Assembly (NCBI GenBank): GCA_021790195.1
Contig: JAJYIF010000020.1
Coordinates: forward strand, 1 to 62,715
Direction of reading: 5' to 3'
Length of the DNA stretch: 62,715 nucleotides
DNA from: Nitrospirota bacterium
GTDB lineage: Bacteria > Nitrospirota > Thermodesulfovibrionia > Thermodesulfovibrionales > UBA9159
Below the pieces are notes generated by a model, which was not told the DNA's origin, made no database searches, and saw only the letters and a list, made by a program, of their open reading frames with translations. Made by a program: the position numbers and the translations under genes. Below are positions 40,286 to 62,715 of the stretch, one piece after another (positions within the stretch are counted from its first letter, which is position 1; every line of letters starts with the position of its first letter).

Positions 40286-40630
40286 ATGGGGAGCGATGTC
40301 CTTAAAGAGGTGATAGCGGCAGAGGCCGAGATACAGAGAAGCCTCGAGTCCGAAATAAAGGCGGCCGCTGACAGAATCGAAAAGATCAAAAGAGAGGTCG
40401 AACAGGAGATCGAGCGCGAGAAAGAAAGGATCGGGGAGTCCTGTGCCCTGATGCTCAAGGAGACGGAAAGGGAGGCGGAAGGCAGGGCCGCCAGTGTTGT
40501 TGCCGAAGCCTCTGAGAGGGCCGGCAATATCAGGGGGCTTAGCGGGGACGCCGTGAGGGAGGCGGTCCTGAGACATTTATGCCGCATACTGCCTGGAGAG
40601 GGCCGTGATAGTCAGGATGTCGAAGGTTGA
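40286..40630 (+). CDS. ntpF: V/A-type ATPase peripheral stalk subunit (H/G-like)
   Basis: A 114-residue, almost wholly helical, charged protein (repeating E/K/R-rich coiled coil over residues 8-85) at the head of the ATPase operon. Size, composition and position match the H (AhaH/NtpF-type) peripheral stalk subunit that pairs with subunit E. Its end overlaps the start of subunit I by 26 bases. The family is weakly conserved, so the call leans on context. Confidence 0.75.
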   Translation: MGSDVLKEVIAAEAEIQRSLESEIKAAADRIEKIKREVEQEIEREKERIGESCALMLKETEREAEGRAASVVAEASERAGNIRGLSGDAVREAVLRHLCRILPGEGRDSQDVEG

Positions 40631-42482
40631 GATCGTCGGACCAAAGGGCATGCTCCGGGAGGTGCTCGGTTTCCTGCGCGACCGGGGGATAATGCAGATC
40701 GAACCCGTCTTCAAAGGGTTTATAGAAAAGGAGGACGAGGAGCACATCCGTTCTTTCCTGCCGGACGAAAAGACACTCGGCGAACGGCTCTTTCTTGAAG
40801 ACCTGATTCGCAAGATCGATGAGCTCTCTTCGTATGTTCAAGAGGCCCCGGTAAGGACGATCTACATCGATCCCCTGTCGATACTTGATACCGTGGCCAC
40901 GACAATCGACAGACACATTGCCGGATGCAAGGAGCTCTTTGAAAGAAAAGAGAAGCTTGAAGGAGAAGCTTCCGAGCTCCATCGGTACCGCCTTTTTCTT
41001 AATGCCCTTGCCTCTCTTTTCAGGACTGCCGAGAGAACTCCCGACCTGGATTTCATAGGCCTGACCATAAAAGAACCCGGGATGGTGGGACGTGTCAGGA
41101 CGCTGCTTTCGCAGATAACGGACTGGGAGTTCGATCTGCTGACCGAGACGGCCGAGGACGGGACACTCGTCGGATTGATAACCATAGAAAAGAGCATGTC
41201 CGGCAAGGTCAAGAAGTCCTTGAGCAACGAACATATTCCCGAACTGACGTTTCCGCCTTCCTTCGAAGACCTGAGCTTCGCCGAAAAGATCGTTTACGTG
41301 CAGAAGAGGATTTCTCTTGTCTTATCCGAGAAGGAAGAGATAAACCGTAAGCTGGAGAGATTTGCTCACCGGTGGATGCCGATCTATACAAGAGTGAAGG
41401 AATGGTCGGAAGAGAGACTTTCGCTTTTGAGGACGGCCGCTTCGGTATTCGAGACGAGGATGTGTTTCTTTATCAACGGCTGGATTCCTTCCGGTGAGCT
41501 CGAAAAGGCCGGAAAGGACCTCGCGGATGTCTTTCGCGGAGAGGTTGCGGTCGAGGAGAAGGGGATATTCGAGGAGGACCTTGTCAGGGTCCCGGTCATC
41601 CTGAAGAACCCGCCTTATTTCAGGCCCTTCGAGCTGCTGGTGAGGTTCCTGCCGCTGCCACGCTACTCTTCCTTCGATCCCACGCCGTTCATAGGGATAT
41701 TCTTTCCGGTCTTCTTCGGCATGATTCTCGGCGACGCCGGATACGGCCTTTTGCTGGCAGGGCTGTCCCTGGTCATGAAAAGGAGGCTCCGCAAGAGAAA
41801 GGAGCTGAGGGACGCCTTTACGATATTGCTTATATGCTCGGTTTATGCGATCTTCTTCGGCATACTATACGGAGAATTCTTCGGCGAGCTCGGCAGCACG
41901 CTCTTCGGTCTCGCGCCGGTCTTCATCGAGAGGCGCAGCGCCATTAAGCCGATGATCCTGTTTTCTCTCTCCGTGGGCGTAGTCCATATTATCCTGGGTC
42001 TTACGATGGGGCTTGTGGCCGCGCTCAGAAGAAAAAGCAGGAGAGAGGCACTTTACAAGATCTCGATGATACTCATCACTGTCTGCATGATCGCTCTATT
42101 CGCATCGTTCTTCGAGGTCTTTCCGGGTCTTCTGGCGAGGCCGCTCATTATCGCCATACTCGTGCTCTCTCCATTTCTGTTTTTTTCGGGCGGTCTGCTT
42201 GCGCCACTCGAGCTTCTGAAGAGCATCGGGAATATTATCTCATATGTGAGGATCATGGCCATCGGACTCACATCCGTGCTCCTTGCATTTGCGGCAAACC
42301 GCATAGCCGGCATGACGGGCGACATTGTGATCGGCATAGTGGTCGCCAGCCTGCTCCATATTATAAATATCATCCTGGGTGTTTTTTCTCCTGCCATTCA
42401 TTCCCTGAGATTGCACTATGTGGAATTCTTCAGCAAGTTCCTTGAGCACGGCGGCAGGAGGTTTGAACCCCTGAGAAAGTAG
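40605..42482 (+). CDS. ntpI: V/A-type ATPase subunit I (subunit a)
   Basis: A 625-residue subunit with a cytoplasmic N-terminal half (long helices, dispersed coiled coil) and a C-terminal membrane half of about seven helices beginning at FFPVFFGMILGDAGYGLLL. The segment near NIISYVRIMAIGLTSVLLAFAANRIA carries the arginine that faces the rotor ring. It conducts ions at the interface with subunit K. GTG at 40605 follows GGAGAGGGCC; the ATG at 40617 is a second possible start. Confidence 0.93.
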   Translation: MIVRMSKVEIVGPKGMLREVLGFLRDRGIMQIEPVFKGFIEKEDEEHIRSFLPDEKTLGERLFLEDLIRKIDELSSYVQEAPVRTIYIDPLSILDTVATTIDRHIAGCKELFERKEKLEGEASELHRYRLFLNALASLFRTAERTPDLDFIGLTIKEPGMVGRVRTLLSQITDWEFDLLTETAEDGTLVGLITIEKSMSGKVKKSLSNEHIPELTFPPSFEDLSFAEKIVYVQKRISLVLSEKEEINRKLERFAHRWMPIYTRVKEWSEERLSLLRTAASVFETRMCFFINGWIPSGELEKAGKDLADVFRGEVAVEEKGIFEEDLVRVPVILKNPPYFRPFELLVRFLPLPRYSSFDPTPFIGIFFPVFFGMILGDAGYGLLLAGLSLVMKRRLRKRKELRDAFTILLICSVYAIFFGILYGEFFGELGSTLFGLAPVFIERRSAIKPMILFSLSVGVVHIILGLTMGLVAALRRKSRREALYKISMILITVCMIALFASFFEVFPGLLARPLIIAILVLSPFLFFSGGLLAPLELLKSIGNIISYVRIMAIGLTSVLLAFAANRIAGMTGDIVIGIVVASLLHIINIILGVFSPAIHSLRLHYVEFFSKFLEHGGRRFEPLRK

Positions 42483-42495
42483 GAAAGGAGGAGAC

Positions 42496-42714
42496 ATGGA
42501 AAAGGTATTGACATCTCTCGCGGCGGCCCTTGCCATAGGTCTCTCCGCCCTGGCAACCGCATGGGCGCAGTCGAGGATCGGGGCGGCGGGGGCGGGGACC
42601 CTGGCAGAAAAACCGGAACTGACCGGGACGGTCATTATCCTCGTCGCTATCCCGGAGACAATGGTGATACTCGGTTTCGTCGTGGCGTCGATGATCCTCT
42701 TTACGCTCAAATAG
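42496..42714 (+). CDS. ntpK: V/A-type ATPase subunit K (rotor ring)
   Basis: A 72-residue two-helix proteolipid. Helix 1 contains AWAQSRIGAAGAG and helix 2 contains the ion-carrying Glu54 in VAIPETMVILG. Gln25 in helix 1 and Thr55 next to Glu54 match residues associated with Na+ binding in some c/K rings, but this is not decisive. The loop is AEKPEL. The short two-helix form, not the duplicated four-helix form of Enterococcus, is present. AGGAAAGGAGGAG precedes the ATG, as expected for a subunit needed in many copies. Confidence 0.92.
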   Translation: MEKVLTSLAAALAIGLSALATAWAQSRIGAAGAGTLAEKPELTGTVIILVAIPETMVILGFVVASMILFTLK

Positions 42715-42715
42715 A

Positions 42716-43282
42716 ATGGGTCGCAGCGAACTCATCGAGGCCCTGCGCAGAGAAGGCGAAGAGAAGAGGCGGTCCATCCGTCGTCAGGCGGAGGAAGAGG
42801 CGGACAGAATCAGGAGGAATGCCGCCGAAGAAATAGAACGGTTAAGGCAGGAGTTGAGAGACCTTCAAGCCGCCGCAGTCAGAGAAAGGTGTGATGCTTT
42901 ACTTTCGGAAGCCCGCAGGAAGGCGCGGATGCTCCTTCTTGCTGCGCACGAGGAGTTGTCGGAGCGGCTCCGGCGGGAGGCGTTCGGGAGTCTCGACCGC
43001 CTGAGAGAAGGAAGTTATGCGGACGTCTTTCGCGGACTCGTAGCGGAGCTGCCGGCTTATAGATGGCAGGTTGTGACGGTCAATCCCGAGGATGAGGAGA
43101 TGGCGAAGGGATATTTCCCGGAGGCGGAGATCATATCGGACAGCGGTATTTCCGGAGGTCTGGACGTTGCAGAAAAGGGAGGGGCGGTCCGCATTGTGAA
43201 CACCTTCGAAAAACGGCTTGAAAATTTATGGGAGGACTTTCTCCCGGAGTTGATCAGGGATGTCTGCGAGAAGACGGGCTGA
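42716..43282 (+). CDS. ntpE: V/A-type ATPase subunit E (peripheral stalk)
   Basis: A 188-residue protein with an N-terminal charged coiled coil (about 1-90) and a globular C-terminal domain (YRWQVVTVNPEDEEM, ISGGLDVAEKGGAVRIVNTFEKRL) typical of subunit E. With the H-like subunit it forms the stator stalk that holds the A3B3 head. It begins one base after the subunit K stop. Confidence 0.88.
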   Translation: MGRSELIEALRREGEEKRRSIRRQAEEEADRIRRNAAEEIERLRQELRDLQAAAVRERCDALLSEARRKARMLLLAAHEELSERLRREAFGSLDRLREGSYADVFRGLVAELPAYRWQVVTVNPEDEEMAKGYFPEAEIISDSGISGGLDVAEKGGAVRIVNTFEKRLENLWEDFLPELIRDVCEKTG

Positions 43283-44243
43283 AATGGAGCTTTTGAGAAA
43301 AGTCGGGGAAGGCGAGTATCCGACCGATTATCTCCTTTCTAGGATAAGGGCGAGGAGGACTTTGATGATCACTGACTGGAGACGCCTTCTCCTTGGCGAA
43401 CCCATTCGGGACCTGGTTCTCTTCCGATACGGCCCTGTGCCGGACGAGGACCCGGAAGCGGTCTGGAGGTTTCTTTTGAAGGAATTCGGTTCGGTTTACT
43501 TCCAGATGAACAAAGACCTGCGCTCCTTTTTTGCTCCCTTTTTTCTTTACGCGGAACTCAGGACCGTTTATATCTGTCTCAGATACGCCAAAGGAGGACA
43601 GGGCGGAAAGGCCGGGAGGCTCCTCTCTTTCAGTCTCCTTTCCGGAAAAATCAGGGAGATCCTTGGGGGCGGATGGGAGCTGCCTTTAATAGTCGATAGG
43701 CTTGGGGAGCTGCTGTCGCAGCTTTCGAAGGGCTTGGGAGGCCTCGGGACTATCCTTGAAAAAAGGGGTCTGCGCGGATTAGAACAGCGGGTCACAACTG
43801 CCTATCTCGAATATGTGGTTCATTCCGGCCTTGATCCGCTCATGAAAGAGTTTTTCGTCTCCATAATCGATTCGAGGAATGTCCTATCCCTTTACAAATA
43901 TATCAGGTCAAGGGGAAAGACTGCCCCTCAGTTCATAGAGGGCGGCAGAATAACGGAAAAGATATATACAGGCATAGCGGTAAAGAGTGACGGCTCCGCT
44001 TTAGAGCATCTTCTTCTCAGACTTACAGGGGTCCGGATTGAAGACCAAGGAATTGCGACGGTTGAGAGTTCTCTTTACAAAATGACGACGCGATTACTGA
44101 GAAGGGCCGGAAGGGAACCCTTGTGCGCCGGAGTGATACTCGATTATCTCTGGAGATGTTCGCTCGAAGCTAGGAACCTCAGCGTTCTTCTTTACGGAAG
44201 CGGTATTGAGAAGGAAGTGCTTGCAGCCGAGATAGTCCAATGA
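43260..44243 (+). CDS. ntpC: V/A-type ATPase subunit C (d-like)
   Basis: A 327-residue, mostly helical protein of the vATP-synthase AC39/subunit C family, which caps the K ring and connects it to the central shaft. ATG at 43260 lies inside the subunit E gene; ATG at 43284 (MELLRKVGEGEYPTDYLLSR), directly after the E stop, is an equally good start. It overlaps the F subunit gene by 4 bases. Confidence 0.85.
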   Translation: MSARRRAEMELLRKVGEGEYPTDYLLSRIRARRTLMITDWRRLLLGEPIRDLVLFRYGPVPDEDPEAVWRFLLKEFGSVYFQMNKDLRSFFAPFFLYAELRTVYICLRYAKGGQGGKAGRLLSFSLLSGKIREILGGGWELPLIVDRLGELLSQLSKGLGGLGTILEKRGLRGLEQRVTTAYLEYVVHSGLDPLMKEFFVSIIDSRNVLSLYKYIRSRGKTAPQFIEGGRITEKIYTGIAVKSDGSALEHLLLRLTGVRIEDQGIATVESSLYKMTTRLLRRAGREPLCAGVILDYLWRCSLEARNLSVLLYGSGIEKEVLAAEIVQ

Positions 44244-44560
44244 AAAAGGTTGCGTTCATTACTACTTCGGATGCTGAATTCGGGTTCAGTCTGGCAGGCG
44301 TGATACAGCGTATCTCGCGCGGGGAAGACGCTTTAGAGCTTCTGAAGGAGCTGACGTCCCGGCCCGAGATAGGGCTCGTAGTTCTCGATGAGCGATTAAT
44401 AGAAGGCATAACGGAGGAGAAACTCCGGGAGATCGAGCAACAATGGCATGGGATCCTGCTCGTTCTTCCGGCGCCTGAAAGGCCTGCGGTCCCTGCCGAG
44501 GATTATATTCAACGGATGATTCAGAGGGCCATAGGATATCATGTGAGGCTGCAGCTATGA
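44240..44560 (+). CDS. ntpG: V/A-type ATPase subunit F
   Basis: A 106-residue Rossmann-like protein starting MKKVAFITTSDAEFGFSLAGV, with GLVVLDERLIEGI and LVLPAPE, the layout of subunit F in the central shaft. It overlaps subunits C and A by 4 bases at both ends. Confidence 0.9.
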   Translation: MKKVAFITTSDAEFGFSLAGVIQRISRGEDALELLKELTSRPEIGLVVLDERLIEGITEEKLREIEQQWHGILLVLPAPERPAVPAEDYIQRMIQRAIGYHVRLQL

Positions 44561-46164
44561 CCGGGAAGGTGGTGGGGATATCGGGGTCGACCGTATACGT
44601 CGATCTGAAGGGACTGAAACTCCTCGAAAGGGTTTATGTGGGTCATCGTATGCTCGCCGGAGAGGTTGTGCGGCTCGACGGGGAGAGGGCCATAGTCCAG
44701 GTTTATGAGGACACGCGGGGGCTCGGCATGAATGAGCCGGTGAAGGCTGGCGGCGCTCCCCTTACGGTGAGGCTTGGGCCGGGACTTCTCTCCGGAATGT
44801 TCGACGGACTGCAAAGACCTCTCGAGAAGTTAAGAGACGAGACGGGACCCTTTATCAGGATCGGAAAAGATATGCGCGCTCTCGACTGCTCAGCCGTGAG
44901 ACGCTTTGTCCCTCTGAAGAGAAAGGGTGACGAAGTCGCTCCAGGAGAGAATATCGGTTTTGTGGAAGAAGGCGCTTTCAGACATTTTATAGCCGCAGGC
45001 GGCCGATCGCAGAAGAGGCTCTCGTGGACTGCCGACGGAGAGATCAGTCTGGAGGGGCCGGTCGGAGTGTTTGAGGACGGCGAAATAATCACGGCCTGCA
45101 GCGAATGGCCTGTGAGGGTTCAGAGGCCTTGCAGGCGGAGGCTTCCGGTCTCCGGGCCTATCGTTACGGGTCAGAGGAGCATCGATTTTCTTTTCCCGCT
45201 TGCAAGGGGAGGGACGGCGGTCCTGCCCGGCGGGTTCGGGACGGGAAAGACTATCCTGGAGCAATCTATCGCCAAGCTCGCGGACGCCGACATTGTGGTT
45301 TATGTGGGTTGCGGCGAGCGGGGCAATGAGATGGCGGAGATGATCGAGGAATTTCTGGACCTGAAAGACCACTGGACCGGCAGGCCGCTGATGGAGCGCA
45401 CGATACTCGTTGTGAACACCTCGAACATGCCCGTTGCGGCGAGAGAGGCATCCATATATACAGCTGTGACCATGGCGGAATATTACAGGGACATGGGTTA
45501 TCACGTGCTCTTTCTCGCCGACAGTCTGTCCAGGTGGGCCGAGGCACTGAGGGAGATATCCTCTTCTCTTGAGGAGATGCCGGGAGAAGAAGGGTATCCC
45601 ACGTATCTCGCATCGAGGCTGTCAAGTTTCATCCAGAGGGCTGGGGTGGTGGAGACATTGAGCGGTGCGACAGGCTCGCTCAGCATGGTCCTTTCCGTTT
45701 CGCCCCCCGGGGCCGACTTTACCGAACCGGTCACGCAGGCCTGCCTTCGGGCCGGGGGAGCGTTTCTCATGCTCGACACGTCTCTGGCCCACAAAAGACA
45801 CTTCCCCGCGATAAACTGGTTCCAAAGTTACTCCCTTTACTCGAAGGATACAATCGAAGTCTACATTGAGAAGGTGTCCGCCCGATGGGGGACTTTAATG
45901 CAGCGCTGCAGGGAGCTCTTGCAAAAAGAACAGACGCTTCTTGAGGTCTCCGAGATTGTCGGCATTGAGGGACTTCAGGATGCAGACAGGCTTGTCATGC
46001 GGGTGGCCGGTATGATCAGGACCGAGTTTCTGGCGCAAAACGCGTATACGGAGGACGCCTTTTCTCCCCCGGAAAAGACCTGTGCAGTTATCACGAGAAT
46101 CCTGGACTACTACGACGACGCATCCGGGAGGTTGAAGCAGGGCAAGGGACTCGAAGAGATATGA
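44557..46164 (+). CDS. ntpA: V/A-type ATPase catalytic subunit A
   Basis: A 535-residue catalytic subunit with Walker A GGFGTGKTI (about residues 228-236), VYVGCGERGNEMAEMIEEF (catalytic Glu) and LADSLSRWAEALREISS (Walker B/arginine region). The A-specific non-homologous insert (about 110-200) is present. At 535 residues it is shorter than the common 575-600, mostly from a compact C-terminal domain. It makes or hydrolyses ATP in the A3B3 head. Confidence 0.95.
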   Translation: MTGKVVGISGSTVYVDLKGLKLLERVYVGHRMLAGEVVRLDGERAIVQVYEDTRGLGMNEPVKAGGAPLTVRLGPGLLSGMFDGLQRPLEKLRDETGPFIRIGKDMRALDCSAVRRFVPLKRKGDEVAPGENIGFVEEGAFRHFIAAGGRSQKRLSWTADGEISLEGPVGVFEDGEIITACSEWPVRVQRPCRRRLPVSGPIVTGQRSIDFLFPLARGGTAVLPGGFGTGKTILEQSIAKLADADIVVYVGCGERGNEMAEMIEEFLDLKDHWTGRPLMERTILVVNTSNMPVAAREASIYTAVTMAEYYRDMGYHVLFLADSLSRWAEALREISSSLEEMPGEEGYPTYLASRLSSFIQRAGVVETLSGATGSLSMVLSVSPPGADFTEPVTQACLRAGGAFLMLDTSLAHKRHFPAINWFQSYSLYSKDTIEVYIEKVSARWGTLMQRCRELLQKEQTLLEVSEIVGIEGLQDADRLVMRVAGMIRTEFLAQNAYTEDAFSPPEKTCAVITRILDYYDDASGRLKQGKGLEEI

Positions 46165-47522
46165 GACTTTCGGAGCACAGATACCGCACCATTTCCTCAC
46201 TGGAAGGCCCGCTGCTCTTTGTGAGAGAGGTTTTTGCAGCGAGGATCGGAGAGGTCATAAGGATAGTTGCTCCTGACGGCAGGGAGCTGGCCGGAGAGGT
46301 CCTGAGAATAGAGGGGGAGACGGTCCTCGTGGAGGTTTATGGAGAGACGCGCGGTCTGGACGCGGAGTCGACATCGGTCATATTCACCGACGCCCTGAGA
46401 AGCGCCCCTCTATCTAGTGAGCTTCTCGGCAGGACGTTTAACGGTTCGTTCAGGCCGATAGACGGCGCGCCGATGTTCGTTCCTGAAAAAAGGTCGCCCA
46501 TCGGCGGTTGTCCGATCAATCCGTCTGCGAGGGCGCGGCCCCAGGAATTCATTGAAACCGGGTTCTCCGTGATCGACGGTCTGAATACGCTTGTGAAAGG
46601 ACAGAAGCTGCCGGTCTTTTCCTGCGCCGGGCTTCCTTCAAAAGAGCTTGTCGCCGGAATTCTCAGAAACGCGCGGACCGTGTCGGCTTCGGGTTCGGGA
46701 CATCCCTTGTTGCCGGGCGCGGAAGCCGCTTTCGTAGTCGTCTTCTGCGCCGTTGGGGTTACGTTTCAGGAGTATCATTTCTACATGAAGGTACTCGAAG
46801 AAATCAGGACCGGGTTCGTAGCCTTCGTGAACATGGCGGATGATCCGGTCATGGAAAGGCTTCTTGCCCCGAGGTTCGGGCTGACGGCGGCCGAATTCCT
46901 GGCATTCGGCTGCGGGATGGACGTCCTTGTGGTCATGACCGACATGACGAATTACTGCGACGCCCTGCGGGAGATATCCACGGCGCGTGAGGAACTGCCG
47001 GGAAGAAGGGGTTATCCCGGCTATATGTATTCCGACCTGGCTTCTCTGTATGAGCGGGCAGGCAGGATAAGGGGGATGAAGGGCTCGGTCACTCTTCTGC
47101 CGGTGGTGACTATGCCCGAGGACGATATCACTCATCCCATCCCGGACCTTACGGGTTATATTACGGAGGGCCAGCTCGTAATGAGCCGTGAGCTTCACCA
47201 GATGAACATCTTTCCTCCGGTAGACGTGCTGCCGAGCCTCTCGAGGCTTATGCAAAAAGGCATAGGAGAGGGCCGGACGAGAAGAGACCACAGGGAGATA
47301 TCGAACAGTCTTTACAGGCTATACGCAAAGGGAAGGGACCTCAGGAAGATCGAGGCGATTGTCGGCAGGGACGGAATGACAAAGGGAGACGTCCTGATGC
47401 TCGACTTTGCGGACGCCTTTGAAAGGGAATTTGTCAATCAGGGGACGAGGGGCAGGACCATAGATGAAACGCTCGATCTCGGCGCAGCTGTTCTCAAGAG
47501 GTTCCAGTCGGGGAAGGCATGA
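46161..47522 (+). CDS. ntpB: V/A-type ATPase regulatory subunit B
   Basis: A 453-residue non-catalytic nucleotide-binding subunit with FIETGFSVIDGLNTLVKGQKLPVF, where the P-loop is degenerate (CAGLPSKEL), and with DMTNYCDALREIS and YPGYMYSDLASLYERAGRI. It contributes the arginine finger at the A/B interface. It overlaps subunits A and D by 4 bases. Confidence 0.95.
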   Translation: MRLSEHRYRTISSLEGPLLFVREVFAARIGEVIRIVAPDGRELAGEVLRIEGETVLVEVYGETRGLDAESTSVIFTDALRSAPLSSELLGRTFNGSFRPIDGAPMFVPEKRSPIGGCPINPSARARPQEFIETGFSVIDGLNTLVKGQKLPVFSCAGLPSKELVAGILRNARTVSASGSGHPLLPGAEAAFVVVFCAVGVTFQEYHFYMKVLEEIRTGFVAFVNMADDPVMERLLAPRFGLTAAEFLAFGCGMDVLVVMTDMTNYCDALREISTAREELPGRRGYPGYMYSDLASLYERAGRIRGMKGSVTLLPVVTMPEDDITHPIPDLTGYITEGQLVMSRELHQMNIFPPVDVLPSLSRLMQKGIGEGRTRRDHREISNSLYRLYAKGRDLRKIEAIVGRDGMTKGDVLMLDFADAFEREFVNQGTRGRTIDETLDLGAAVLKRFQSGKA

Positions 47523-48196
47523 TACACCCGACGAGGACAAACCTCTTTCTGTTAAAGGAAAAGGCCAGGGCCGTCTCCGGCAGTGCAGGGATACTGAAGG
47601 CGAGGAGACAGGCGCTTATAAGGGAGTTTTTGGAGACGAGCCGGCCCTTTCTCAGATCGAGAGAAGAGATCAGGAACACTTACGGGAACGCCCTCCGGGA
47701 GCTCGCGCTCAGTCTCGGACACGAGGGAAGGGACGCTGTCGGTTCCGTAGCTGCCGCGGCAGCGAGGGATTTCGCGATCGATATTGCTGAGAAGAGTATA
47801 TGGGGGCTTAAATATAAAGACATATCGGTGGCCGAAGGACCGGTGAGGGCGCCCGAGGAAAGGGGATACGATTATCTTTCGACTACACCCCACCTCGATG
47901 AGTGCATTTACCGCTTTGAAAAACTGCTCGAATCGATGATAGATAACGCGGAGTTTGAAAGCAAATTAAAGCGGCTCGGCGCCGAGATACTTAAAACGAC
48001 AAGGAAGATAAGGGTGCTCGAAGAAATCGTGGCTCCGGATCTCAGACGCAAAATCAGGGGCATCACTCAATTCATCTCTGAGCGGGACAGAGAGTCATAT
48101 TATCGTCTTAAGAGGTTTAAGAAGAAGGCGCGGAGACAGATTCACAGGTCCCTGACAAATTTGCCGAGTCTCGATAGCTCCGATCTCAGTTCCTGA
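47519..48196 (+). CDS. ntpD: V/A-type ATPase subunit D (central shaft)
   Basis: A 225-residue antiparallel coiled-coil protein ([21 protein letters not shown] at the start) with helices at both ends, the rotor shaft inside the A3B3 head. It is the last gene of the ATPase operon. Its final 55 bases overlap the 3' end of the convergent hybrid kinase gene, so the two mRNAs would be complementary there. Confidence 0.93.
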
Positions 48197-53073: not shown

Positions 53074-53241
53074 GGTCGAATTCCTCCTTCTTTTGCCGTA
53101 ACGAAAAAATTCATCGCTGAAGAAAAATGCCCGTTGATAGCTTAACAAAAATTGAAGGTCCTGTGGAAGGTTTCAGGTATCTGGATTTTTGGCCGGAATA
53201 TTGATAATATTTCTAGAACGACGGATGCCGTATACGAGAAG

Positions 53242-54531
53242 ATGAAGGAGATGAAGCCTATGGTGCACAGACATCACGAAAGGATACATATAGACGACAG
53301 GAACCTCTGCAAGTTGTGCATAAATGAGCTGGGCGACCTCTATATGGACCTGGGTCTTTCTGCGGACGAGCTCGAGCTGCTCGCAATGCCGAGGCGGTCT
53401 TTCACATTCCATTTCCCTGTGAGGATGGACTCCGGTAAGACCCGGATGTTTGTGGGCCACCGGATACAGTACAACGACGCGCGGGGGCCGACGAAGGGAG
53501 GGCTGAGGTTCCATCCGGAGCTGACCGTCGACGATGTCAGGGACCTCGCCTTTCTGATGGTGCTGAAGTGCGCGGTGGTGAATATCCCGTTCGGCGGGTC
53601 GAAGGGCGGGGTCGTCGTGAACCCGAAGGAGCTGAGCAAGAACGAGCTCGAACAGGTGACGCGCGCCTATATCCGCGCGATTCAGGACTATATCGGGCCT
53701 TTCAAGGACATTCCCGCGCCGGACGTGTATACCGACGAGCATATCATGGTCTGGATACTGGACGAGTACGAGCGCATAAAGGGGCAGCATGTTCCTGCTG
53801 TTGTGACGGGTAAACCGTATGAGCTTCAGGGCATCAAGGCCAGGACTTATTCAACGTCGCTCGGGGGAATATATGTCCTCGAAGAGGCCATGAAGAGGCT
53901 CCGTATGAGTAAGGCGAGGGCGAGGGTCTCGGTGCAGGGTTTCGGTCACGTCGGGGAGAACGCGGCACGAATCCTTTTCGAGGAGGGTTTCAAGATAGTT
54001 GCTGTGAGTGATTCCAAGGGCGGCACGATGAACTCCAGGGGTCTCGATATTCATAAGGTGATGCAGCACAAGGAAAAGACCGGCTCGGTGGCGGACTTCA
54101 AAGGGGGCCGGAATATCAGCAACGCTGAACTGCTTACGTCCGACTGCGACATTCTCATACCTGCTGCGCTTTCAGATCAGCTGAATAAGGAGAATGCGGG
54201 ACGGGTCAGGGCGAAGATAGTCCTGGAGCTTGCGAATGCCCCCACAACGACGGAGGCTGACCAGATCTTCTCGAAGAAGGGAATAATGCTTGTGCCGGAT
54301 GTGCTTGCCAACGCAGGCGGGGTTGTGGTGAGCTATTTCGAATGGAGCCAGAGCCTGACGAACGAGTATTGGGACGAAGAAAAGGTGTTAAGGAAGCTGA
54401 AATCGGTCATGATAACCGCATTCCACGATGTTTTTGCCCTGTGCGAGAATAGGTGCAGGATGAGAAGGGCGGCGTATCAGCTTGCGGTGAGGAGGATCCT
54501 TCATGCCGAGAGGATGCGCGGAAATCTGTAG
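53242..54531 (+). CDS. gdhA: Glutamate dehydrogenase
   Basis: A protein of about 429 residues of the Glu/Leu/Phe/Val dehydrogenase family, with QYNDARGPTKGGLRFHPE, the catalytic lysine region NIPFGGSKGGV, and the cofactor motif VQGFGHVGENAARIL. It interconverts glutamate and 2-oxoglutarate plus ammonia. The frame extends to a TTG at 53152, but the extra residues are unlike the family. ATGs at 53242, 53251 and 53260 are close alternatives; AAGGAG sits nine bases before 53260. It is divergent from the aldolase gene, with little room for two promoters (the gap is 53074-53241). Confidence 0.9.
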   Translation: MKEMKPMVHRHHERIHIDDRNLCKLCINELGDLYMDLGLSADELELLAMPRRSFTFHFPVRMDSGKTRMFVGHRIQYNDARGPTKGGLRFHPELTVDDVRDLAFLMVLKCAVVNIPFGGSKGGVVVNPKELSKNELEQVTRAYIRAIQDYIGPFKDIPAPDVYTDEHIMVWILDEYERIKGQHVPAVVTGKPYELQGIKARTYSTSLGGIYVLEEAMKRLRMSKARARVSVQGFGHVGENAARILFEEGFKIVAVSDSKGGTMNSRGLDIHKVMQHKEKTGSVADFKGGRNISNAELLTSDCDILIPAALSDQLNKENAGRVRAKIVLELANAPTTTEADQIFSKKGIMLVPDVLANAGGVVVSYFEWSQSLTNEYWDEEKVLRKLKSVMITAFHDVFALCENRCRMRRAAYQLAVRRILHAERMRGNL

Positions 54532-55406: not shown

Positions 55407-57746
55407 ATGGAAAAGCTGTTGAACAGGGATGATTTGAAGAAACTGAGGGAGAAGCTGGCATCAGAGGTGTTTCTCGAGGGGAAGGAGCGGGCGAGGGTAT
55501 GCTGTGGGACCGCCTGCACCGCTTCGGGTTCCTCGAAGGTGGTTCATGCGCTTGAAGAGGAAGCAAGGAAGAAGGGCCTCGACATGGAGGTCGTGAGAAC
55601 AGGGTGCCAGGGCATGTGCCAGAAGGGCCCGATCATGAAGATGGAACCCCAGAACATCTTCTATCAGAGGGTGAAACCCGAACAGGCAACGTCACTTATA
55701 GGTTATACCTTCGAGACCGGCACACCTTTCAGAGAAGCCCTTTATAGGAAAGATATCCTCAGCGAGCCCATCACGGAGATGCTTGACCTGCCTTTCTATA
55801 AGAAACAGCTCCGTATTGCGCTCAGGAACAACGACAAGATCGACCCGGCCAATATATTGCATTACATTGCGGTGGGAGGGTACGCAGGCCTTGAGAAGGC
55901 GCTTTCCGCCATGAGCCCGGAGGACGTCTTGCATGAAGTGGACCGGGCGCTTCTGAGGGGAAGGGGCGGGGCCGGTTTTCCGGCCGGAAAGAAGTGGATG
56001 CACACAAAGAGCGCACCCGGAAACATAAAATTCGTCATCGCCAACGGAGATGAAGGAGACCCCGGGGCCTTTATGGACAGGTCCATTATGGAGGGCGACC
56101 CCCACAGTCTTTTTGAGGGCATGCTCCTCTGCGCTTATGCCATAGGAGCGTCCTACGGCTTCATATACGTCCGGCATGAGTATCCCCTTGCGGTCAGGAA
56201 CCTCAAGCAGGCGATTCATCAGGCGGAGGAGCTCGGACTCCTTGGCAGGAACATCCTCGGCAGCGGCTTCAGCTTCCACCTTGACGTGAGGGAGGGCGCC
56301 GGCGCTTTCGTCTGCGGAGAGTCCACCGCCCTAGTTGCGTCTATCGAGGGAGAAAGGGGGTTCCCAAGGCCGCGACCTCCAAGGCTCTCCGAGCCTGGCG
56401 GAGGCGTCTGGGGATACCCGAGCAACCTGAACAATATCGAGACCTATGCCTGTGTGCCGCCCATTATTGAAAAAGGCGCGGACTGGTTTCGGAGCATCGG
56501 CACGGAAACTTCCCCCGGCACCAAGGTCTTTGCCCTTACCGGCAAGGTCAAGAACACGGGTCTGGTCGAAGTGCCCATGGGAACGACGCTCAGGGAGATC
56601 ATCTTCGATATCGGCGGCGGCATCCTTAATGACAAGAAGATAAAGGCGGTCCAAACCGGCGGACCTTCGGGAGGATGCATTCCGGCGAGCCTGCTCGATA
56701 CCCCGGCGGATTTCGATTCTCTATGGAAAGTGGGCTCGATGATGGGCTCGGGCGGAATGGTCGTCATAGACGAGGACACCTGCATGGTGGACGTGGCGAA
56801 ATACTTTCTTTCTTTCACCCAGTCGGAGTCCTGCGGGAAGTGCCCTCCGTGCAGGATCGGGACTTACCAGATGCTGGAGATCCTTAAAGATATCACGAGC
56901 GGAAAGGGAAAGCACGGCGACATCGAGAGACTTATAGAGATGGGGAGACAGATCCAGAAAGGGTCTCTGTGCGGGTTGGGCCAGTCGGCCCCGAACCCGG
57001 TGCTCAGCACAATCCAGTATTTCAGGGACGAATACGAGGAACATATCTATGGGAAATACTGCAGGGCAAATGTGTGCGGGGGCACCGGCGTCTTCGTGAT
57101 CAATTCCGCGGAGTGCATCAGCTGCGGGCTCTGCAAGCAGGCCTGCGCCTACGGGGCCGTGAAAGAGACCAGAGAACACTTCTTTATTGACCAGGATGTC
57201 TGTGAAAAATGCAAGGCGTGCTTTAACGCGTGCCCCATCAGCGCGGTCAAGATAAGAAAGCAAAGCATTGTGAAGCTCGAAGAGCAGTTCAGGGTACCTC
57301 CTGAAAAGATTGAGCTACTCGAAAGGAGAGCGAAAATGACACTGAAGGACCTGTTACAGGCGAAGCCTTCAAAGATGGTTACGTGCAAAACAACATGCAT
57401 TGTTGCCGACGCGATAACGGTCATGGACGGACACAATGTCGGCTCCATACTGGTGCTGGATGAGAACGAGAAACTGGCCGGTATCTTCACTGAGAGGGAC
57501 ATCATGCACTGTTTCGCGAAGAACATTAATTTCAAGGAGGAGACCATGGCTACTATTATGACCGCCAAGCCGATCGCCCTTGGGTCGGCCACGGACATAA
57601 GTGTCGCCATTGCGGTCATGTCGGAAAAGAAGATCAGGCATCTGCCGGTCATGGAGGACGACAAGATCATCGGAATGGTTTCATACCGGGACCTGGTTTC
57701 TTACCTGCTGCCTGAGGTCATCTACATGGCGGAAGATATCTATTAG
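55407..57746 (+). CDS. nuoF: NuoF-like flavoprotein with ferredoxin domain and C-terminal CBS pair
   Basis: A 779-residue fusion. Residues 1-115 are a thioredoxin-like [2Fe-2S] domain (CCGTACTASGSSK, TGCQGMCQKGP). Residues about 150-560 are the NuoF core: FMN site GRGGAGFPAGKKW, NADH site GDEGDPGAFMD, and the [4Fe-4S] motif ESCGKCPPCRIG. Two [4Fe-4S] clusters follow (CISCGLCKQAC, CEKCKACFNACP), then a CBS-domain pair (about 643-779: VGSILVLDENEKLAGIFTERD, IRHLPVMEDDKIIGMVSYRD). The HydB-like layout is usual for bifurcating enzymes; the CBS pair is not. An in-frame ATG at 57336 with AAAGGAG upstream could also yield the CBS module alone. Confidence 0.93.
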   Translation: MEKLLNRDDLKKLREKLASEVFLEGKERARVCCGTACTASGSSKVVHALEEEARKKGLDMEVVRTGCQGMCQKGPIMKMEPQNIFYQRVKPEQATSLIGYTFETGTPFREALYRKDILSEPITEMLDLPFYKKQLRIALRNNDKIDPANILHYIAVGGYAGLEKALSAMSPEDVLHEVDRALLRGRGGAGFPAGKKWMHTKSAPGNIKFVIANGDEGDPGAFMDRSIMEGDPHSLFEGMLLCAYAIGASYGFIYVRHEYPLAVRNLKQAIHQAEELGLLGRNILGSGFSFHLDVREGAGAFVCGESTALVASIEGERGFPRPRPPRLSEPGGGVWGYPSNLNNIETYACVPPIIEKGADWFRSIGTETSPGTKVFALTGKVKNTGLVEVPMGTTLREIIFDIGGGILNDKKIKAVQTGGPSGGCIPASLLDTPADFDSLWKVGSMMGSGGMVVIDEDTCMVDVAKYFLSFTQSESCGKCPPCRIGTYQMLEILKDITSGKGKHGDIERLIEMGRQIQKGSLCGLGQSAPNPVLSTIQYFRDEYEEHIYGKYCRANVCGGTGVFVINSAECISCGLCKQACAYGAVKETREHFFIDQDVCEKCKACFNACPISAVKIRKQSIVKLEEQFRVPPEKIELLERRAKMTLKDLLQAKPSKMVTCKTTCIVADAITVMDGHNVGSILVLDENEKLAGIFTERDIMHCFAKNINFKEETMATIMTAKPIALGSATDISVAIAVMSEKKIRHLPVMEDDKIIGMVSYRDLVSYLLPEVIYMAEDIY

Positions 57747-57758
57747 AGGTGGGGAAAG

Positions 57759-58358
57759 ATGGAGAAGAGCTCTGCGGAGAAGAAAGAGATCAAGATTGAA
57801 GAGCTGAAAATACACGCCGAGGAAAAGGGCTGCCCCGTGCAAAAGGCGCTTTGTTACATAACGGAATTCCTCGACGGTCCCATGTGCGGAAGATGTTTCC
57901 CCTGCTCCATGGGCAGCTATGAGGCGAAGATAAGACTCGAAAGGATCGCGGGCGGCGGAGGCTCCGGCGAAGACGTGAGGGCCCTCAAAAGGATTGCCGG
58001 GAACATGCTCGAGTCCTCCTTCTGCAAGAAGGGGAAGGACACGGCGAGGTTCATTGTCGACTGGATGGCTTCGGACGTTTTCGACGTGCATGCCGGAGGA
58101 GGGTGCCCCTCGATGGAGTGCCGGGCCCTTGTTGAATACCGTATCATCCCCGGCAAGTGCGACGCGTGCGGCCTCTGTATGGACGCCTGCAGGCCCCACG
58201 CTATTCTCGGACAAAAGAGAAAGCCTTATCAGAGCGGATATCCGGCTTTTGAGATCCGGCAAAAGAGGTGCACTAAATGCGACAATTGCAGGGGCGTCTG
58301 CCCGACAGGGGCGATTGTGGTCGTCAATGCAAATTTCAGGGAGTCCGTAGGCGTTTAA
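57759..58358 (+). CDS. Truncated NuoF-like [4Fe-4S] domain fused to ferredoxin
   Basis: A 199-residue iron-sulfur protein. Residues about 20-95 resemble only the C-terminal [4Fe-4S] domain of NuoF (CGRCFPCSMGSYEAK, then SSFCKKGKD), without any FMN or NADH part. It continues with a spacer containing GGGCPSMEC and two [4Fe-4S] ferredoxin motifs (CDACGLCMDACRP, CTKCDNCRGVCPTG). It lies 12 bases after nuoF and is followed by the nuoG-like gene after 101 bases. It probably provides an extra electron-exit path for the complex. I know no assigned name. Confidence 0.85.
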   Translation: MEKSSAEKKEIKIEELKIHAEEKGCPVQKALCYITEFLDGPMCGRCFPCSMGSYEAKIRLERIAGGGGSGEDVRALKRIAGNMLESSFCKKGKDTARFIVDWMASDVFDVHAGGGCPSMECRALVEYRIIPGKCDACGLCMDACRPHAILGQKRKPYQSGYPAFEIRQKRCTKCDNCRGVCPTGAIVVVNANFRESVGV

Positions 58359-60475: not shown

Positions 60476-60505
60476 ATTTCTTTTAACAGGGCTGACCTCA
60501 ACTCG

Positions 60506-60535
60506 CCCCGCCTGAAAAGGCGGGGTCCTTTTTTT
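60506..60535 (+). terminator. Rho-independent terminator after the NuoEFG-like operon
   Basis: CCCCGCCT-GAAA-AGGCGGGG (60506-60525) is a perfect 8-bp stem with a GAAA tetraloop, followed by TCC and seven T (60529-60535). It lies 31 bases past the nuoG stop. The adjacent minus-strand gene ends at 60549. Confidence 0.92.
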
Positions 60536-62417: not shown

Positions 62418-62715
62418 GTTTCAATCCACGCTCCCGCGCGGGGAGCGACGGTCCAGGGCAAGGAAGGATGGAGAGTCAAGACAGATGTTTCAATCCACGC
62501 TCCCGCGCGGGGAGCGACATAGTCCTCAGCGTCTTTCGCCGTCTCCCCTTCCGTTTCAATCCACGCTCCCGCGCGGGGAGCGACCTCCTTTTCGTCTTTC
62601 TCTTCTTTCCCTTTTGTAAGTTTCAATCCACGCTCCCGCGCGGGGAGCGACTCTGAACCATCTCATGACATCGTCATAAGACGGCGGTGTTTCAATCCAC
62701 GCTCCCGCGCGGGGA
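62418..62715 (-). CRISPR. CRISPR array, subtype I-C-type repeats (leader-distal end)
   Basis: Four complete identical 32-base repeats start at 62418, 62487, 62553 and 62620, and a fifth (62689) is cut by the window end after 27 bases. The repeat begins GTTTCAATCCACG and ends GGGGAGCGAC and holds the palindrome GCTCCCCGCGCGGGAGC on the opposite strand. Spacers are 37, 34, 35 and 37 bases. The reverse complement ends in GTGGATTGAAAC, the usual 3' handle of I-C repeats, so the array is probably transcribed on the minus strand. The repeat at 62418 would then be the leader-distal (oldest) end. cas genes must lie beyond the window. Confidence 0.97.

Follow-up and report, generated by a model that had tools for sequence, protein, structure and literature searches.

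The mechanism of the Bfu enzymes is debated, with the hinge (Zn or [2Fe-2S]) and the mobile ferredoxin clusters acting either as a wire or as a gate; to our knowledge, the route from CO dehydrogenase (CODH)/acetyl-CoA synthase to NADH and ferredoxin in Nitrospirota is not settled. Structurally described HydB/BfuB subunits (Thermotoga maritima HydABC, 7p5h; A. mobile HydABCSL, 7t2r; and NfnABC, 9bp5/9n5u) have a C-terminal half that contains a B1-type cluster, a Cys3His site, and two ferredoxin clusters. For T. maritima HydB, the Cys3His equivalent was modeled as Zn (Furlan 2022, PMC9499530), and for A. mobile as a five-coordinate [2Fe-2S] cluster (Schut 2022, PMC9304861). NuoF of respiratory complex I possesses the N3-cluster domain but no ferredoxin domain, and it is described as devoid of the Cys3His site in PMC9499530. 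In the [FeFe]-hydrogenase CbA5H of C. beijerinckii, the same kind of module is fused to the hydrogenase and so is an accessory to another type of catalytic unit. The available text of PMC9304861 defines BfuB by IPR011538, IPR019554, IPR019575, and IPR017896, and it describes Codh-Bfu as BfuABC genes intertwined with those for CO dehydrogenase, reported from Firmicutes only, a Type 2 Codh-Bfu whose BfuA lacks clusters A3 and A5, and Por-Bfu as BfuABC plus four pyruvate oxidoreductase genes, found mainly in Chloroflexi and Proteobacteria. The searched text of that paper makes no mention of a flavin-less BfuB paralogue or a CBS domain for Codh-Bfu.

The 62,715-nucleotide stretch of Nitrospirota DNA analyzed here (the window) encodes a four-gene set that fits the Bfu family by its domains, from which electron bifurcation is predicted (Table 1). 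All four BfuB domain types were present in the second gene product (Pfam in place of InterPro), which is arranged as an N-terminal thioredoxin-like [2Fe-2S] part, an FMN domain, SLBB, NADH_4Fe-4S, two Fer4 domains, and two CBS domains; its match to the NCBIfam nuoF_fam model was below the cut-off. The set also includes a NuoE-like BfuC and a BfuA with 2Fe-2S and 4Fe-4S domains, and the four products would make up a Bfu-type (HydABC-like) enzyme consisting of BfuC, BfuB, a small protein, and BfuA. What is new compared to the known Bfu family is the small protein, a flavin-less half of BfuB. The sequence-only reading had placed its gene between nuoF and nuoG; the downstream neighbor is indeed NuoG-like, but the upstream gene is of the BfuB type with a CBS pair rather than a plain NuoF. 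This CBS pair occurs at the BfuB C-terminus in some families and is absent from others; it forms a separate ORF in loci L025 and L037 and lies after NuoG in L059, and it possibly senses adenylates. In the window, the gene immediately preceding the set encodes a glutamate dehydrogenase. Terminator-like sites in the region numbered seven, compared to a mean of 5.9 for shuffled sequence.

Table 1. Features of the window, with positions numbered from its first nucleotide
Feature	Position	Strand	Evidence
Gene run resembling a V/A-type ATPase operon	40286-48196		read from ORFs
Glutamate dehydrogenase gene	53152-54531		
BfuC/NuoE-like subunit, thioredoxin-like [2Fe-2S], 159 aa	54915..55394	+	PF01257, 2.4e-45
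BfuB/HydB-type subunit, 779 aa	55407..57746	+	Pfam PF01512, PF10531, PF10589, PF01257, Fer4, PF00571
CBS-domain pair at the BfuB C-terminus	57327-57743		
Small protein (199 aa), flavin-less FeS half of a BfuB paralogue	57759..58358	+	Pfam, PDB sequence matches, alignment A1, AlphaFold2, fold matches
Zn or [2Fe-2S] hinge ligands C25, H111, C116, C121 (Cys3His)	57831..58121	+	invariant in 34/34 rows
B1/N3-type [4Fe-4S] ligands C43, C46, C49, C89	57885..58025	+	invariant in 34/34 rows
Two ferredoxin-type [4Fe-4S] motifs, C134-C144 and C171-C181	58158..58301	+	Fer4; invariant in 34/34 rows
NuoG-like BfuA, 671 aa	58460..60475	+	Pfam; alignment with a Sec-type formate dehydrogenase
Terminator-like hairpin after the fourth gene	60505..60526	+	pattern scan
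CRISPR-like array, running off the window end	62418-62715		five ~32-nt repeats with spacers

The ORF of the small protein, which starts 12 bases 3' of the upstream gene and is followed by the NuoG-like gene, is genuine and conserved. Pfam assigned residues 31-101 to NADH_4Fe-4S (PF10589, 3.5e-12) and residues 132-186 to Fer4 domains, whereas the FMN-binding Nuo51 domain and the SLBB domain were sought with Pfam and not found, and the N-terminal thioredoxin-like 2Fe-2S part of BfuB is absent. Because these two families alone match, the small protein is not itself a BfuB; it does possess the NADH_4Fe-4S and 4Fe-4S ferredoxin domains, the ligands of clusters B1, B3, and B4, and the Cys3His site of that subunit. 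A PDB sequence search aligned residues 21-191 colinearly and without rearrangement with the C-terminus of HydB/BfuB (7p5h, E 4.5e-21), and a profile match to the HydB C-terminus gave E 1.1e-33. The AlphaFold2 model (pLDDT 90.2, pTM 0.82) had BfuB/HydB chains as its top structural matches, with 9bp5_B yielding a Foldseek E of 2.8e-10 and superimposing over 160 residues with Z 16.0 and an rmsd of 2.0. The similarity to NuoF/HydB thus extends far beyond the cysteines in sequence, profile, and fold, in agreement with the sequence-only reading. That reading had also described a NuoF [4Fe-4S] domain to which two ferredoxin clusters had been added; both parts were found, but the clusters were not joined to the NuoF domain since this order is native to HydB/BfuB. 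The match to complex I NuoF was to the N3-cluster domain (8e9h_F, Z 14.0, 98 residues). In the small protein, CKKGKDT replaces the CGLG...APNP loop that follows the fourth B1 cysteine in HydB/BfuB, and the stretch between the two ferredoxin motifs is longer than there.

Conservation of the metal ligands was assessed in alignment A1, which held 34 diverse relatives chosen from 82 hits by <72% identity and a length of at least 170 aa. Sixteen of its 26 invariant columns are metal ligands by homology; those of the ferredoxin motifs are C134, C137, C140, and C144 along with C171, C174, C177, and C181. In a separate look at 58 unfused small proteins, from which fused copies had been dropped by a score rule, one truncated row was without the last five ligands. 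The Cys3His site had escaped the sequence-only reading. At the position of the fifth B2 ligand, which is Cys or Thr in BfuB, the small proteins vary, so a four-ligand metal site fits better at their hinge. The retained Cys3His hinge site, together with bridge clusters like those of T. maritima HydB (PMC9499530), would also agree with the small protein being a structural stand-in that supplied the second bridge domain of a HydABC-type dimer, serving as a hinge or gate on BfuB with electron transfer secondary. We consider this rather improbable, as the ligands of the B1-type cluster are also invariant and a gate alone would not require them. Precedent for the reuse of a related module is provided by the accessory domain of CbA5H (9f46_B; Z 11.9 over 153 residues, rmsd 5.4), although the module is fused to the hydrogenase there and is a separate subunit or joined to BfuB here. 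The small protein is a HydB half that is naturally split from the flavin with every ligand kept, and as a separate subunit it could be made alone, making its cluster content, potentials, and hinge metal measurable without flavin.

We investigated the origin of the small protein with a tree of the C-terminal domains (63 rows, comprising 31 of 52 prepared small proteins, 25 operon BfuBs, 2 other BfuBs, and 5 PDB sequences). The small proteins formed one clade with support of 100/100, and the BfuBs of the same operons formed a separate clade (100/99). The window protein matched the HydB proteins of T. maritima, T. kivui, and A. mobile at 33-34% identity (89-90 bits) versus 26% (59 bits) for its own neighboring BfuB. 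A recent duplication of the neighbor was rejected on the basis of these identities and the separate clades. The related proposal that a partial duplication of the adjacent nuoF became joined to a ferredoxin is exceedingly improbable: the domain family is shared with the neighbor, and a tree grouping the small proteins with the operon BfuBs, as an ancient sister relation would have it, was not rejected (p-AU 0.459), but the small-protein clade is not nested in the neighbors' lineage, the HydB match is the better one, and the ferredoxin part belongs to BfuB natively. We regard the split as old, and because the joint tree was not rejected, the stem of the operon lineage is among the candidate sources. 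Judged from these sequence comparisons, the small protein is an old paralogue of the complete iron-sulfur half of BfuB. The mirror-tree correlation (r 0.57) came from only 14 loci, too little to lean on.

One-to-one relatives of the small protein were present in 53 of 61 related genomes. At E <= 1e-38, it was detected in 106 of 295 genomes of the phylum, belonging to the class of the window and to one family (f23) of another class. The sole probe of distribution beyond the phylum, a search with peptide patterns taken from the small protein of the window that would miss divergent members, identified 32 loci, of which 30 were true relatives with titles naming exclusively Nitrospirae/Nitrospirota, Nitrospiraceae, Nitrospira, Thermodesulfovibrio(nales), or Magnetocorallium; the other two (L061 and L062) matched at ferredoxin residues only. 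The search of viral contigs returned no relative, and no description of the small protein was found in the openly available literature searched, which included a paper on Thermodesulfovibrio N1 (PMC5165239).

The gene order seen in the window (NuoE-like, BfuB, small protein, NuoG-like) had been a suggested search target, and it recurs widely, being shared by nearly all loci that were read. Both the small protein and the NuoG-like gene (E <= 1e-100) occurred in 52 of the 61 genomes and neither in eight; one genome had the small protein alone. Six genomes carry, besides an unfused copy of the small protein, a second copy that is fused to BfuB in one frame of 898-919 codons. The constant gene order, the pairing with the NuoG-like gene across genomes (both present or both absent), and the natural fusion to BfuB indicate that the small protein is likely associated with the complex. 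Loci L046, L051, and L079 have two or three tandem BfuB genes per set and a single small protein. The fusions could also be accommodated by an unlikely, though not far-fetched, scenario in which the small protein is a private ferredoxin. As a detachable carrier, it would shuttle electrons after docking at the C-terminal domain of BfuB, and it would be neither a fixed subunit nor in touch with the CO dehydrogenase CooS. It has two ferredoxin-type clusters, and a tether to BfuB might be expected of a private carrier. A simple carrier would have no need, however, of an entire helical domain with B1-type and Zn-hinge sites and invariant ligands.

Membership of the set in complex I or in a membrane Nuo-Bfu (14 subunits) was rejected because the membrane Nuo genes lie on other contigs of the window genome: NuoH-family genes were located on C33, C11, and C17, whereas the window is on C51. 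The complex I NuoF is beside NuoH on C11; since complex I has its own NuoF elsewhere, the Bfu set is not the NADH module of complex I.

The NuoG-like BfuA contains Fer2_4, NADH-G_4Fe-4S_3, and Fer4 domains (Pfam), and none of its cluster motifs, the one beside the pterin domain included, has lost its Cys ligands. Pfam gave no match to a C-terminal pterin domain in this protein. A Tyr occupies the position at which the Sec-type formate dehydrogenase of locus L073 has a TGA codon. BfuA as a formate dehydrogenase (Fdh-Bfu) was rejected, given the lack of Cys/Sec at the pterin metal position and of the C-terminal pterin domain. From its sequence, BfuA looks like a conduit, and a conduit-like subunit implies that a partner enzyme is needed for the third substrate. 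Locus L073 is itself a second Bfu set; its formate dehydrogenase gene contains an in-frame TGA where Sec is expected, and the product of a gene nearby reads as a formate-tetrahydrofolate ligase lookalike.

Genomes with the small protein nearly always encoded CooS. When the 295-genome sample of the phylum was scored without regard to phylogeny, CooS (E <= 1e-100) was present in 105 of the 106 genomes with the small protein versus 17 of the 189 without it, and AcsB in 104 versus 30. The distance from the small protein to CooS was at most 12.3 kb in 88 of the 106 genomes. Among the 53 related genomes with the small protein, CooS was within 12.3 kb in 42 and AcsB within 10.3 kb in 39. Many loci have AcsB and CooS (identified by NCBIfam NF040764 and TIGR01702, both above the cut-off) preceding the Bfu set; in L106-L111, from another class, CooS comes after it; in L112 and L113, CooS comes before it with AcsB not adjacent; and in L089 and L130, and probably in L115 (where the NuoG match is a fragment), CooS is inside the set between BfuA and BfuC. 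AcsB as a constant partner was rejected, since L106-L113 have CooS adjacent and AcsB not; AcsB was elsewhere in the genome in 13 of 13 genomes tested from families f23 and f14. These arrangements resemble the Firmicutes Codh-Bfu in having CODH beside or within the BfuABC genes and differ in belonging to another phylum and usually including AcsB, so that CODH-linked Bfu gene sets now extend beyond Firmicutes, the sole group named for Codh-Bfu in the text available from PMC9304861. In the window itself, CODH is neither beside nor within the Bfu genes. The AcsB-CooS-NfnBA genes of this genome are on another contig (C8, locus L128) and the Bfu genes stand alone, so contact with CooS is not implied by the window locus. 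Likewise, the 17 CooS-bearing genomes of the phylum without the small protein indicate that CooS does not need it.

Separation of the two gene sets agrees with an alternative in which the Bfu set is only co-regulated with CODH/ACS or Por and deals with some other third substrate via the end cluster of BfuA, with no CooS contact. No CooS gene lies within 13 kb of the small protein in the window genome or in 17 others of the 106, and BfuA retains its pterin-side cluster ligands. Against it stand the adjacency of CooS in three gene orders and two classes and the loci with CooS inside the set, and we judge it about as improbable as a hinge or gate role for the small protein.

The fused copies have different company. 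BfuB-small protein fusions were read in L056, L076, L077, L078, L120, and L121, and PorG-D-A-B (pyruvate:ferredoxin oxidoreductase) genes follow the fusion in L077, L078, L120, and L121; only a PorB-like gene was recognized downstream in L076, and L056 ends before that point. The four pyruvate oxidoreductase genes are shared with the Por-Bfu of Chloroflexi and Proteobacteria, but here BfuB and the flavin-less half form one protein, which has an additional tandem ferredoxin segment. This ferredoxin-like segment, with two more CxxCxxCxxxC motifs, separates the halves of the fusion in L121 (2843-5530), L120, and L077. Because the fused version goes with Por and not with CooS, the partner is not unique.

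We read the small protein as an internal wire on account of its complete set of clusters, its missing flavin, and the company of CooS or Por. With a B1-type cluster, the hinge site, and two ferredoxin clusters retained and no FMN, it would carry single electrons and would not handle NAD(H). A BfuA without pterin chemistry would leave the third substrate to a partner, most likely the nickel CO dehydrogenase CooS or, in the second, fused version, pyruvate:ferredoxin oxidoreductase. Assembled in one complex with that partner, the flavin-less half would connect it to the bifurcating core and replace free ferredoxin. The idea of a second exit or entry point for electrons, put forward in the sequence-only reading, is thus plausible, and we narrow it to CO dehydrogenase or pyruvate:ferredoxin oxidoreductase as the candidate partner. 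On balance, we lean slightly toward the small protein being an additional subunit, devoid of flavin, that wires the partner to the core of an NADH/ferredoxin bifurcating enzyme of the Bfu type linked to CODH. It probably wires CO dehydrogenase, or some other enzyme whose usual carrier is ferredoxin, to NADH and ferredoxin. More tentatively, and with distinctly less conviction, we suggest that the flavin-less copy serves a Nitrospirota CODH-Bfu (Por-Bfu for the fused form) as an additional, dedicated subunit, a built-in wire by which enzymes otherwise dependent on free ferredoxin would supply or draw on the bifurcating core. As to the direction of flow, oxidizing CO to yield NADH and reduced ferredoxin is the thermodynamically easier course; with CO2 as the substrate, the mean potential of NADH and ferredoxin would be too weak, and CO2 fixation by this route would have to be explained in some other way. 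If our proposal is true, the CODH of the Wood-Ljungdahl pathway would be coupled directly to NAD(H) across a whole bacterial class.

Some genomes have a second copy of the set with additional neighbors. In L072, L115, and L131, the copies adjoin a conserved LarC-like nickel insertion protein (PF01969) and a LarB-like AIRC protein (PF00731), with Pfam run on these neighbors for L115 only, as well as a LarE-lookalike and a 590-592 aa protein, neither of which had a Pfam match. These Lar-like neighbors suggest a link to the nickel-pincer cofactor. Elsewhere in the window, we noted a gene run resembling a V/A-type ATPase operon and, at the end, a CRISPR-like array (Table 1).
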